From: Candidatus Aminicenantota bacterium
Lineage (GTDB): Bacteria > Acidobacteriota > Aminicenantia > Aminicenantales > Aminicenantaceae
Reading direction: 5' to 3'
Assembly (NCBI GenBank): GCA_020344415.1
Contig: CP070825.1
Location: 4,298,566-4,362,565 of the forward strand
Length of the DNA: 64,000 bases
Positions 55,088 to 60,766 of the stretch are shown here, piece after piece; position 1 is the stretch's first letter, and every line of letters begins with the position of its first letter. The notes under the pieces were generated by a model. It searched no databases and was not told the origin of the DNA. It saw nothing but the letters and a program-made list of their open reading frames with translations. The translations under genes were made by a program, and so were the position numbers.

Positions 55088-55804
55088 ATGTCACTTTTTC
55101 TATTTAAATCTATTCTTGCCACATTTTTTCTTTTGGCGGGATTGATTGCAGTCATCAGCATGTTGACCCTGATGGGAAGGCAGGGGAGGAAAATCAGCGC
55201 AAATTTCCTGAGAAAAGCACATAAAATATCTGGATTTATTTTTTGTGTACTTCTCATCGTAATAAGCTATTTCTGCATCAAGTATTGGGTCACAGCCGGG
55301 GATCAAATCTCTGCAAGAGCCATTGCCCATAGTGTCCTAGCTCTGGCTCTTTTTATTATATTTATTCTGAAGATCTTAATAGTCCAATTTTACAAACAAT
55401 TCCTCAAATATGTGCCGGTACTGGGGATGATTGTATTCGCTTTGAGTTTCATAGTATTTAGCACTTCAGCGGGCTTTTTCTTCTTAAGAACCTTTTGCGA
55501 AAAAGGCGAAACAGTAGAAGCAGCCGTCACTCCAAGGACAGACCTTCAAGGAAACGTCGAAAAGGGCGCTCTGCTCTACAATAACAAATGCGGTGCCTGT
55601 CATTATGCTAACAAGGAAGATAAGAAGCTCGGGCCAGGGCTTAAAAACATATTGAGGAAAGAAAGGCTTCCTCACAGCGGCAGACCCGCAAATATTGAAA
55701 ACATTAAAAGTCAGCTTATAAAACCGGTCCTGACCATGCCATCGTTTTCCAATCTCACAGAACAAGAACTTGCAGATTTGTTGGCATATCTAGAAACCCT
55801 GTAA
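55088..55804 (+). CDS. Membrane-anchored cytochrome c with four-helix N-terminal domain
   Basis: This 238-aa protein has four membrane helices (about 6-26, 46-66, 80-100, 109-134) and then a periplasmic cytochrome c domain with one heme motif CGACH (168-172) and a likely Met ligand M217 in VLTMPSF. H45 and H81 lie at the start of helices 2 and 3 and could hold a heme b, which would make it a b/c fusion. I do not recognise a named family for the N-terminal part. It may pass electrons from quinol to a periplasmic acceptor. Gene lies 54 bases after guaB. Confidence 0.82.
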   Translation: MSLFLFKSILATFFLLAGLIAVISMLTLMGRQGRKISANFLRKAHKISGFIFCVLLIVISYFCIKYWVTAGDQISARAIAHSVLALALFIIFILKILIVQFYKQFLKYVPVLGMIVFALSFIVFSTSAGFFFLRTFCEKGETVEAAVTPRTDLQGNVEKGALLYNNKCGACHYANKEDKKLGPGLKNILRKERLPHSGRPANIENIKSQLIKPVLTMPSFSNLTEQELADLLAYLETL

Positions 55805-55906: not shown

Positions 55907-56069
55907 TCAGGATGGCTGATGAGGAAAGCCCTCCGCAGGCGGAGCGGGCATGGTTCCTCGAAGAGGAGAGCGAAGCCGAGGACCGCGAAGAAAAAGGGGA
56001 CAGTCCCCTTTTTTTTATCTCCTTTATTTGCACCTCTTTTCCCGCAAAAAAGGGGACTGTCCCCTTTTT
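55907..56069. repeat. GGGGACAGTCCCC palindromes with adjoining GC-rich hairpin DNA
   Basis: Two palindromes of the dispersed family (55991-56012 and 56046-56069, cores GGGGACAGTCCCC and GGGGACTGTCCCC) follow an 80-base GC-rich stretch (55907-55990) with short internal inverted repeats (GGCGGAGC, GAGGAGAGCGAAGCC). The whole stretch opens a 64-codon frame, but it is repeat DNA. Confidence 0.75.
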
Positions 56070-56217
56070 CTTGAATGCTGACGATTCAGCCAGCCTGATG
56101 GACTAATAGATACATCAAGTAAAAAGAGATGCTTTCTTCCCAAATGGAGGAGTTGACATCACTTTCATTTTTCTTTTAGAATAAGTCCACAACCACAAAA
56201 AATGGGAGGAGGGACCC

Positions 56218-56679
56218 ATGAAAAGAAGAGATTTCTTTGAAAAAAGCGGCTGCGGTCTTTTTACAACAATGCTGGCGTATTTTAGTCTAACTTCCTGCAA
56301 AAAAGAAGAAGAAGCTCCAGCAGTTGAGGAGCAAGCTCCTGCTCCAAAGGAAGAGATAAGCCAAAAAGAGATGGTTAAAAAGATGTTAATGGAAAAACAA
56401 GGAATGACCGAAGAAGAAGCTAATGCCAAAATTGCTGAGTTTGAAGAGAAACTCCCAATGGTCAAGAACGCATGCATCTGCAAGGCCTGCCCCACTTTTG
56501 TCGCAGAAGAGACAGAGCTCGCCTTTTGTCATCCCCTTATTGGAAAAAGCAAAATAATTACTGAAGAAAAGGGCTGTGATTGCCCCAAGTGCCCCGTATA
56601 CCAGCAAATGGGAATGAAGAATGGCTATTACTGCACCAGAAAGTCAGAGATGGAACAGGAAATGGCCAAGATTACCTAG
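56218..56679 (+). CDS. Tat-exported DUF2769-type lipoprotein with eight-cysteine domain
   Basis: This 153-aa protein starts KRRDFFEKSG, a twin-arginine-like signal, and has the lipobox LTSC with C27, so it is probably a folded-exported lipoprotein. A Pro/Glu-rich linker and a helical stretch lead to a domain with cysteines 86, 88, 91, 104, 120, 122, 125 and 139 (CICKAC, CDCPKCPVY). Eight cysteines in this spacing fit DUF2769, where two iron-sulfur clusters are plausible. GGAGGAGGG precedes the start. It is first of a three-gene redox cassette. Confidence 0.8.
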   Translation: MKRRDFFEKSGCGLFTTMLAYFSLTSCKKEEEAPAVEEQAPAPKEEISQKEMVKKMLMEKQGMTEEEANAKIAEFEEKLPMVKNACICKACPTFVAEETELAFCHPLIGKSKIITEEKGCDCPKCPVYQQMGMKNGYYCTRKSEMEQEMAKIT

Positions 56680-56802
56680 TGTCATTAATTTTCTACCAGA
56701 TTCAAAAATTTCTCAAGCTTTTAAAGTTAAATACGTTTAAACAAACAGGAAAGGAAGAAGTGGATTTACAAACAAAAATCGATATAATGAGAGCATAAAA
56801 AA

Positions 56803-57228
56803 ATGAAAAAATTTTGGCGGTGTTTTGTCTGCAACGATATCCATTACGGAGTGAACCCACCGGAAATATGTCCAACCTGTATGGCAAAGAATGCCTATGT
56901 AGAAATTTCCTCGGCAGAAGCCCAAAAGATAAGCGGAATGACAAAGGGCGACTTTAATAAACAAAAATTTCATGAGGCCATTGAAAAATTCACAGAGAAT
57001 AATGAATTCCAGGTGAATCCAGATAAGGAAAGAGTCACGATGCTCCTGGATGGAATATTCAACAACGAAAAGAATCATGGCTTAAAATACTGCCCGTGCA
57101 GACTGATCATGAAGGACTTTGAGGAAGATTTAAAGCTTGTCTGCCCATGTAACTTTCTTATTCATGAAACTTATAAAGATAAGGGAGAGTGTTGGTGCGG
57201 CCTTTTCGTAAGGAGGGAAAAGATATGA
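56803..57228 (+). CDS. Rubredoxin-like domain fused to ferredoxin:thioredoxin reductase catalytic domain
   Basis: This 141-aa protein has an N-terminal zinc-ribbon/rubredoxin-like unit with C7-x2-C10 and C23-x2-C26 in the order of rubrerythrin tails. From about 48 to 137 it is an FTR beta-type domain with CPC (97-99), CPC (114-116) and CWC (130-132), where plant FTR has CPC, CPC and CHC. These ligate a 4Fe-4S cluster and the active-site disulfide. It should reduce disulfides with one-electron donors; the fused rubredoxin-like part could be the donor. It overlaps the next gene by 4 bases. A TATAAT box is at 56783-56788. Confidence 0.88.
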   Translation: MKKFWRCFVCNDIHYGVNPPEICPTCMAKNAYVEISSAEAQKISGMTKGDFNKQKFHEAIEKFTENNEFQVNPDKERVTMLLDGIFNNEKNHGLKYCPCRLIMKDFEEDLKLVCPCNFLIHETYKDKGECWCGLFVRREKI

Positions 57229-57503
57229 GCAAACTGATAATGTTCCATGCGAGGGAATGCCCCCACTGCCAGAGGATGATGCCTTATGTCGACAAACTGG
57301 AAAAAGAGACTGGTATTAAATTTGAAAGACTAGAGATCTGGCACAATGAAGAAAACGCAGATCTGATGAGATCTTACAGGGATATCATTGCCCCCAAGTG
57401 CGGAGGCCAGCTTAAGACACCCGCCTTTTTGAACACAGAGACCAAGGATGCTTTCTGTGGGGAGGTGGAATACGAAACGCTCAAAGAATGGGCATTAAAA
57501 TAA
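57225..57503 (+). CDS. Glutaredoxin/thioredoxin-fold protein with CPHC site
   Basis: The start chosen is ATG 57225, preceded by AAGGAGGG and overlapping the FTR stop as ATGA; a longer frame from 57189 runs inside the FTR gene. The 92-aa product has the redox motif C12-P-H-C15, the cis-proline in KTPAF (P66) and two extra cysteines (C59, C78). The size and fold fit a glutaredoxin/NrdH-like or thioredoxin-like protein. The coupled FTR-like protein is the natural reductant, forming a small ferredoxin- or rubredoxin-driven thiol system. Confidence 0.88.
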   Translation: MSKLIMFHARECPHCQRMMPYVDKLEKETGIKFERLEIWHNEENADLMRSYRDIIAPKCGGQLKTPAFLNTETKDAFCGEVEYETLKEWALK

Positions 57504-60001: not shown

Positions 60002-60676
60002 CTATTTTTCTCTTTTAGAATCCTTGTCTTCTTTACTAAGAGGCACGTAATACAAAGGACTTTTTTTCATTTCCTTAATCTTATCTACAATATCCAGTAT
60101 ATCTTCTTCCCTACTAAAATTCAAATCGTCTGCCTTAACCACCAGGAGTGGCGCTGCCTGATAATTAAAGAAGAAATAATCAAGGGCTTCAAGAATATCC
60201 TCTAGATATTTTTCGGAAATATTCTTTTCCAGAGCACTCCCCTCTTTGGCTATCCTTTTTAGGAGACTTGGTAATGAAATCTGAAGATAAATGACTAAAT
60301 CAGGTCTGGCAACTCTGTCAGCAAGAATGCTGTAGATCCTTTCATAGACAATAAGTTCATCATCAGTAAGAGTTTGATAGGCATATATCTTGTCTTTTTC
60401 AATTATATAATCGCAGATAACTCTCTCTTCGAATAGATCCCGCTGCATAAGCCTGGACTGCTGGTAATATCTATTAACCAAAAATACAAGCTGAGCAAGA
60501 AAAGCAGCTCCCTCCTTTTCATCATAAAAATCCTTGAGATAAGGATTCTCAGGTCTATCAAAAATAACCCTCCCTCCTATTTTTTGAGCTAGACTATTGG
60601 CTAATTTAGCTTTTCCAGATTTCAGAACTCCTTCTATAGCGATATGCTTGAAAATTATCTCACCCTTTTCCAACAT
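60002..60676 (-). CDS. Deoxynucleoside-kinase-family protein with altered P-loop
   Basis: Numbered from ATG 60676 (a TTG at 60688 is in frame), this 224-aa protein has the dNK fold: an N-terminal strand-loop, a lid region, and ERVICDY resembling the ERS motif of dNKs. The P-loop reads G16-VLKS-G21-K22-A23: the Ser/Thr after the Lys is Ala. That residue normally binds the Mg-ATP, so kinase activity is uncertain. A TATAAT box is about 15 bases upstream on this strand. It stands upstream of panB. Confidence 0.75.
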   Translation of the reverse strand: MLEKGEIIFKHIAIEGVLKSGKAKLANSLAQKIGGRVIFDRPENPYLKDFYDEKEGAAFLAQLVFLVNRYYQQSRLMQRDLFEERVICDYIIEKDKIYAYQTLTDDELIVYERIYSILADRVARPDLVIYLQISLPSLLKRIAKEGSALEKNISEKYLEDILEALDYFFFNYQAAPLLVVKADDLNFSREEDILDIVDKIKEMKKSPLYYVPLSKEDKDSKREK

Positions 60677-60766
60677 CTCTGAGTCCAAAAAAAATTATAG
60701 CTTAAAAAATAACGTATAAAATGAGATAAGTCAATCAAAACGTAGGAGCATGATTTATTAGGCCAT

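Follow-up and report, generated by a model that had tools for sequence, protein, structure and literature searches.

Ferredoxin:disulfide reductases (FDRs) are described in two papers (PMC7278568, PMC6262447) as iron-sulfur enzymes, archaeal as well as bacterial, that reduce disulfides; the second paper refers to Prakash 2018, Kumar 2015, Wei 2015 and Balsera 2013. In one chain reported in the FDR literature, electrons pass from ferredoxin through the FDR and a small redoxin to a client enzyme, there ribonucleotide reductase. Two solved structures are the nearest to the protein reported here, both by sequence and by model: the FDR of Methanosarcina acetivorans (4TPU), in which a CPC/CPC/CxC catalytic domain of the ferredoxin thioredoxin reductase (FTR) type and a rubredoxin share one chain, and the glutaredoxin (Grx)-FDR fusion of Desulfotalea psychrophila (7PWE), in which a redoxin and an FTR-type catalytic domain form one functional unit and in which sequence comparison gave no rubredoxin match.

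Plant FTR has a separate variable chain and carries a His in its CxC motif, and active-site roles are attributed to this His and to the Tyr found at the same position in M. acetivorans FDR. Substrates of the latter enzyme reportedly include a Trx and methanoredoxin, a glutaredoxin-like protein (Prakash 2018). Here we describe a related rubredoxin-FTR protein (Rub-FTR) and its partner redoxin from a stretch of 64,000 nucleotides (the window) of a Candidatus Aminicenantota genome, and compare the locus with its relatives in bacteria and archaea.

Genes of the locus

The three open reading frames (ORFs) claimed in an earlier note on this DNA are all present on the forward strand, and the four-base overlap that it described is the ATGA at 57225-57228, where the redoxin ATG overlaps the Rub-FTR stop. 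The features of the locus are as follows.

55088..55804, + strand: DUF6529-cytochrome c, a membrane protein with a DUF6529 transmembrane part and then a C-terminal mono-heme c domain (PF20139 E=3.2e-13, PF00034 E=4.7e-10)
55988..56067, no strand: palindrome pair GGGGACTGTCCCC separating the cytochrome c and DUF2769 genes, the first closed by a T run (terminator-like)
56153..56182, + strand: sigma70-like promoter TTGACA-N18-TAGAAT, 5' of the DUF2769 gene, with 11/12 consensus matches (consensus match only; the region has 5 such sites against 5.3 in shuffles, i.e. chance level)
56218..56679, + strand: Tat-type DUF2769 protein, probable lipoprotein (PF10967 E=2e-14)
56803..57228, + strand: Rub-FTR, a rubredoxin-like domain plus a ferredoxin:thioredoxin/disulfide reductase catalytic domain
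56815..56898, + strand: rubredoxin-like domain of Rub-FTR, residues 5-32, with Cys 7, 10, 23 and 26
56962..57219, + strand: FTR catalytic domain of Rub-FTR, residues 54-139, with CPC, CPC and CWC
57225..57503, + strand: 92-aa CPHC redoxin of glutaredoxin/thioredoxin-like type, its translation coupled to that of Rub-FTR
57258..57269, + strand: CPHC active-site motif of the redoxin, residues 12-15, assigned from sequence

Rub-FTR is the single FTR gene of the 4.43-Mb genome. The nearest named relatives by locus are Candidatus Aminicenantes MAGs (best locus 84% identity), and the housekeeping genes around the locus (secA, guaB, panBCD) are common to many relatives.

Domains, fold and clade of Rub-FTR

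Domain searches placed both halves of the protein above their family cut-offs, the N-terminal part in RUBY_RBDX (PF21349, residues 5-32, E=1.7e-8) and the catalytic part in FeThRed_B (PF02943, residues 54-139, E=5.4e-18). The reported CPC, CPC and CWC motifs were confirmed at residues 97-99, 114-116 and 130-132, and the rubredoxin-like four-Cys domain that the FTR had been said to carry was found and is conserved among homologues. An AlphaFold2 model (mean pLDDT 78.7, pTM 0.58) is usable for the fold and weak near the cluster (block mean pLDDT 53-62, residues 91-120). Its best structural match was 7PWE (Z 8.9, rmsd 3.8, 90 aligned), followed by 4TPU (Z 8.2), while the plant and cyanobacterial FTR catalytic chains (1DJ7, 2PU9), which share the catalytic-chain fold, gave Z 5.7. 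The rubredoxin part of the model (first 38 residues) matched the C-terminal domain of rubrerythrin (Z 5.7, rmsd 1.5).

The window protein is thus FDR-like in architecture and probably in action; it differs from each known form in specific ways. The rubredoxin is N-terminal, whereas in 4TPU it is C-terminal; the CxC residue is Trp in place of Tyr, and the spacing from the second CPC to CxC is longer than in 4TPU. Plant-type FTR has CHC and lacks the rubredoxin domain. The redoxin and catalytic domain fused in 7PWE are encoded here by two genes, and the N-terminal part of 7PWE resembles a methanoredoxin-type Grx, whereas the CPHC redoxin belongs to a different, divergent family. The Grx comparison comes from the C-rubredoxin FDRs (FTR then rubredoxin) of the same order, which sit behind a Grx gene of their own (L039, L040), that of L039 resembling methanoredoxin-type Grx structures as well as 7PWE; because this Grx gene precedes the C-rubredoxin FDRs, the redoxin-FDR partnership recurs with another redoxin family. 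Five distinct C-rubredoxin FDR genes were found in the phylum, with CYC in three and CFC in two, and an FTR-domain tree (built from 94 columns and rooted at the midpoint, with bootstrap values that had not settled) split the N-rubredoxin sequences from these five at 100/100. Judged from sequence, the separate clade, the reversed domain order and the invariant Trp in CxC make Rub-FTR a distinct FDR-like subfamily.

That an FTR with a fused donor domain in a non-photosynthetic bacterium seemed little described was overstated, since the rubredoxin-FTR of 4TPU and the Grx-FDR of 7PWE are known. Searches of the open-licence literature found no paper on DUF2769, none with 'ferredoxin thioredoxin reductase' together with 'rubredoxin domain', and none joining three of FTR, rubredoxin, dihydrolipoamide, Aminicenantes and Methanomassiliicoccus. 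The Trp that replaces His or Tyr, together with the natural split and fused forms described below, makes the role of rubredoxin in FDR directly testable.

The partner redoxin starts at the ATG at 57225 (92 aa) and not at the start of the longer GTG ORF. Its matches to Trx and Grx profiles were weak, the best Pfam hit being Thioredoxin (E=8.8e-5, 22.9 bits against a cut-off of 23.5), and an archaeal homologue passed the same cut-off at 24.3 bits. Cys 12, 15, 59 and 78 were invariant in 8/8 aligned sequences and P66 was conserved; PDB matches were weak, and the protein represents a divergent family.

Conservation of the Rub-FTR/redoxin pair

The full rubredoxin-FTR fusion was found in 7 genomes of the same order within a phylum sample of 297 genomes, with the redoxin gene directly after the fusion in each. 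Scanning of genome contigs with an eight-row alignment, with loci picked by the peptide patterns WRCFVCND and GECWCGLF, yielded 74 loci: 45 of Aminicenantes type (L041-L083, L107, L112; one labelled Clostridiales), 25 archaeal, from Methanomassiliicoccales and others labelled Thermoplasmatota, Euryarchaeota or Methanomicrobia (L084-L106, L109, L113), and four outside both groups (L108, L110, L111, L114). The redoxin gene directly followed Rub-FTR in 70 of the 74; three DPANN loci and one locus cut off by the end of its contig were the exceptions.

The ten cysteines, four in the rubredoxin and six in the FTR domain, were invariant in 64/64 aligned homologues (an alignment that leaves out six rows having stops or frame breaks), an invariance that is in part selected for because the loci were picked by peptide patterns. 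The counts were therefore repeated on 60 loci found by HMM, namely the best 30 from a set of 94 genomes searched (47 with a match spanning both domains) and the best 30 from a set of 120 (37 taken as carriers). Among these best 30 plus best 30 loci the redoxin adjoined Rub-FTR in 60/60 (tblastn), CWC was present in 60/60 and the N-terminal rubredoxin spacing was kept in 59/60, so that the loss of rubredoxin cysteines among homologues, which the earlier note had raised against itself, did not occur. The association it had claimed between the FTR and the glutaredoxin-like gene proved near-inseparable (70/74, and 60/60 of the best 30 plus best 30). Within the cassette, it is the pair of Rub-FTR and redoxin that holds together robustly.

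Rubredoxin and FTR are encoded as separate adjacent ORFs in three loci (L108, L110, L111), and L106 carries two rubredoxin units; the split ORFs and the doubled unit indicate that rubredoxin is a functional partner of the FTR rather than a chance extension. A ferredoxin-like ORF lies directly after the FTR in L111 and further downstream in L108. These two loci, from DPANN archaea, have a rubredoxin ORF and a CWC-type FTR ORF, and no CPHC redoxin was seen at either locus; a rubrerythrin-like ORF is also present at L111. The third split form (L110 4525-5277), on an actinobacterial MAG contig, does have a CPHC redoxin, and its isolated placement could reflect transfer or mis-binning. Viral contigs gave no match to a single-sequence query.

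The cytochrome c/DUF2769 module

DUF2769 (PF10967) was assigned to residues 86-140 of the exported protein at 54.3 bits against a cut-off of 22.8, with the eight Cys (86, 88, 91, 104, 120, 122, 125 and 139) arranged as two CxCxxCP...C halves and invariant in 19/19 aligned sequences. The N-terminus has an RR-x-F-F-E-K-S signal followed by an LTSC lipobox. Among 10 long forms aligned, the RR motif was present in 10/10 and the lipobox Cys in 6/10, for which reason export appears better supported than lipidation; of the likely Tat-exported lipoprotein proposed earlier, the eight cysteines and the RR signal stand and lipidation is the less supported part. The predicted structure (pLDDT 48.6) was too low to use. 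In the upstream cytochrome c, His45, His81, C168xxC171H172 and Met217 were invariant in 18/18 aligned sequences, and the two membrane-part His together with CxxCH and the distal Met would fit heme b plus heme c.

DUF6529-cytochrome c lies upstream of Rub-FTR in 18/74 loci; the exported DUF2769 lies between the two in 10/74, the arrangement of the window, and 8 loci among the 74 have a short cytosolic-type DUF2769 before cytochrome c. Some form of DUF2769 occurs in 15/45 Aminicenantes-type loci, all 15 of which also have cytochrome c, so that DUF2769 tracks cytochrome c. The suggestion that the upstream cytochrome c might be functionally related gains from the recurrence of the cytochrome c and DUF2769 genes in order in relatives. 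Across 93 Aminicenantales genomes, 17/33 DUF2769 matches lay no more than 3 kb from Rub-FTR, where random placement would give 0.08, and 16/33 fell away from it. Co-occurrence elsewhere, in the absence of which the earlier reading would have been in difficulty, thus holds almost without exception for the FTR/redoxin pair and is partial for DUF2769; no DUF2769 was found in the fetched neighbourhoods of the seven first relatives. The link is real but partial, and local to part of the lineage.

DUF2769 as a core cassette member was rejected, given the 16/33 matches not near Rub-FTR and the stand-alone copies of L208 and L213. Those two copies (4687-5106 in L208 and 4679-5098 in L213) are Tat-type and lie far from Rub-FTR or any such cytochrome c. 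Of the three-gene cassette as first drawn, therefore, the FTR/redoxin pair holds and DUF2769 does not belong to the core, its exported form being present in 10/74 loci, all with cytochrome c.

A further gene of such loci, rubTPP, encodes a 589-aa fusion in which a pyruvate-oxidase-like TPP enzyme carries a rubredoxin domain (seen at L042 1217-2986 and at nine loci besides). It was found in 13/93 Aminicenantales genomes, near Rub-FTR in 10/13, and was not found in the window's genome at a threshold of E 1e-150. In G325, rubTPP, a short DUF2769, cytochrome c and an exported DUF2769 stand in a row in the absence of any Rub-FTR; because this set occurs on its own, the locus contains two modules that often share a site, and cytochrome c with the exported DUF2769 is best taken as a membrane/periplasmic electron-transfer module of its own, separable from the pair. 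In the genome without Rub-FTR, a CDGSH-like ORF (L203 5983-6621, motif by eye) lies directly after the cytochrome c-DUF2769 genes.

Lipoyl-enzyme genes and E3

The most informative functional context of the pair, the genes of lipoyl enzymes of the pyruvate-dehydrogenase type, lies outside the window. Strong matches to E2 (over 200 bits) were found in 13/93 Aminicenantales and 30/120 Methanomassiliicoccales genomes, and the E2 gene was within 6 kb of Rub-FTR for 12/13 of the former and 28/30 of the latter; the remaining bacterial E2 is on another contig and the two remaining archaeal ones are in genomes without a Rub-FTR match. Fisher tests of E2/Rub-FTR genome co-occurrence, in which shared ancestry is ignored, gave p=1e-4 (Aminicenantales) and 2.5e-17 (Methanomassiliicoccales). 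No strong E2 match was found in the window's own genome, which explains why this 2-oxoacid dehydrogenase/lipoate context had been missed earlier. Lipoyl-E2 cannot be the sole client, since 35/48 Aminicenantales (that of the window included) and 9/37 Methanomassiliicoccales genomes with Rub-FTR have no strong E2.

The layout of these genes differs between the two lineages. In 12 Aminicenantes-type loci E1a-E1b-E2 follow on the same strand directly 3' of the redoxin, with E1a only visible in two more. In the archaeal loci the gene for lipoate-protein ligase (LplA) is next in 22, and a convergent E2 is present in 20, accompanied by E1b and E1a as far as the contig extends; 14 of these also have LipA, recognised from its sequence. 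Domain searches identified E1 alpha, an LplA-type ligase with its small subunit, and an E2 in which a lipoyl, an E3-binding and a catalytic domain are all present; the bacterial and archaeal sets (one of each compared) showed 50-65% identity, and the E3-binding domain is kept in both E2 proteins examined. L052 holds rubTPP, cytochrome c, DUF2769, Rub-FTR, redoxin, E1a, E1b and E2 together. The linked enzymes are thus 2-oxoacid dehydrogenase E1/E2 and lipoate genes, in contrast to the ribonucleotide reductase of the known FDR chain, and no description of a link between the pair and lipoyl enzymes was found in titles or abstract starts of the open-licence literature.

No motif of Lpd, the dihydrolipoamide dehydrogenase (E3), was found in any of the 74 loci. 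Elsewhere in the genomes, Lpd above the TIGR01350 cut-off was present in 77/93 Aminicenantales, including 13/13 with E2; this cut-off was passed by 0/18 archaeal genomes. An NF004947-type Lpd homologue (called at E 1e-60 or better; the family's own cut-off was passed in 16/46) was found in 46/120 Methanomassiliicoccales, including 30/30 with E2 against 16/90 without. The flavoprotein E3 accompanies E2 as well as Rub-FTR does. Replacement of E3 by the pair was rejected, being unsupported where every E2 genome, 13/13 bacterial and 30/30 archaeal, has Lpd elsewhere; an additional electron route beside E3 is possible.

Proposed mechanism and alternative readings

We consider it fairly probable that the pair forms a two-protein, FDR-like thiol relay that links dithiols to a one-electron carrier, lipoyl-E2 being the likeliest client where a 2-oxoacid dehydrogenase exists. 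Ferredoxin or another low-potential one-electron carrier would exchange electrons with the fused rubredoxin iron, from which they would pass, by homology, to the [4Fe-4S]-linked CPC/CPC/CWC site; this site would reduce the disulfide in the CPHC motif of the redoxin translated along with it, a step suggested by the adjacency of the genes and by the existence of a natural Grx-FDR fusion. The redoxin would then act on a client disulfide, most likely that of lipoyl-E2 where the dehydrogenase exists, as the linkage of the genes in both bacteria and archaea suggests. Reduction of the client appears the likelier direction. Rubredoxin potentials lie near 0 V, which makes delivery from ferredoxin through rubredoxin to a disulfide energetically awkward. 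Of the disulfide-reduction line with an extracytoplasmic arm put forward in the earlier note, the relay is a plausible reading that fits the known FDR kind, and the cytochrome c/DUF2769 arm is separable.

If the pair does serve lipoyl enzymes, electrons could enter or leave the 2-oxoacid dehydrogenase, a central carbon complex so far known to pass them via the flavoprotein E3, one at a time through an iron-sulfur route, and the FDR family would gain a defined metabolic client in hard-to-culture bacteria and archaea. A bolder form, which we regard as rather doubtful, is that the pair acts as a gate that needs no flavin and connects the lipoyl arm (or another dithiol) with one-electron carriers, a gate common to Aminicenantes and Methanomassiliicoccales. 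Electrons from 2-oxoacid oxidation would then reach rubredoxin without NAD and, in Aminicenantes, continue to the membrane cytochrome c/DUF2769 chain; in the alternative sense, ferredoxin would charge the lipoyl groups.

The relay might instead be a further reductase line for general thiol homeostasis with no special client, the adjacency to E1/E2 or cytochrome c being inherited synteny, and the 35/48 Aminicenantales carriers that lack E2, the position of the locus amid housekeeping genes (secA, guaB, panBCD) common to relatives, and the presence of thioredoxin reductase and Lpd in the window's genome all agree with this. Inherited synteny nevertheless fails to explain the E2 linkage, because the bacterial and archaeal loci have two different layouts: archaeal arrangement and neighbours differ, yet E2 is within 6 kb in 28/30. 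We judge general homeostasis unlikely, and if it alone applied, Rub-FTR would add a subfamily to an enzyme kind already known.

Less probable again is a reversal of the flow, in which the redoxin would take electrons from dihydrolipoyl-E2 or another dithiol and Rub-FTR would pass them through rubredoxin to one-electron carriers, a path that involves no flavin and would work alongside E3 or in its place. Dithiols have a potential of about -0.29 V, so that transfer to rubredoxin at about 0 V would run downhill; E2 linkage in two lineages with E3 absent from the loci (Lpd motif 0/74), and the electron-transfer genes (cytochrome c, DUF2769, rubTPP) of the same locus, all present in L052, point the same way. 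Against it, Lpd in all 30 archaeal and 13 bacterial E2 genomes means that E3 replacement is not needed, and neither of the two E2 proteins examined has lost its E3-binding domain. Lastly, and least probable of these readings, the rubredoxin-like domain might bind zinc in a structural role and serve to dock a partner, instead of being an electron-transfer iron site: the model does match small four-Cys ribbons, of which MCM zinc-ribbon proteins bind zinc, besides rubrerythrin-type rubredoxin, but the MCM proteins rank below rubrerythrins and the nearest sequence matches are the rubredoxin domains of rubrerythrin and FDR.

Other features of the window

The palindrome AAAGGGGACTGTCCCCTTT has 13 strand matches in the window against 0.02 expected and a REP-type look. 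It forms three close pairs (70-88/131-149, 3314-3332/3340-3358 and 55993-56011/56049-56067), the last of which lies between the cytochrome c and DUF2769 genes. Downstream, positions 60002-60688 encode a deoxynucleoside-kinase family protein (PF01712 E=1.7e-27) within a conserved pan-gene neighbourhood.
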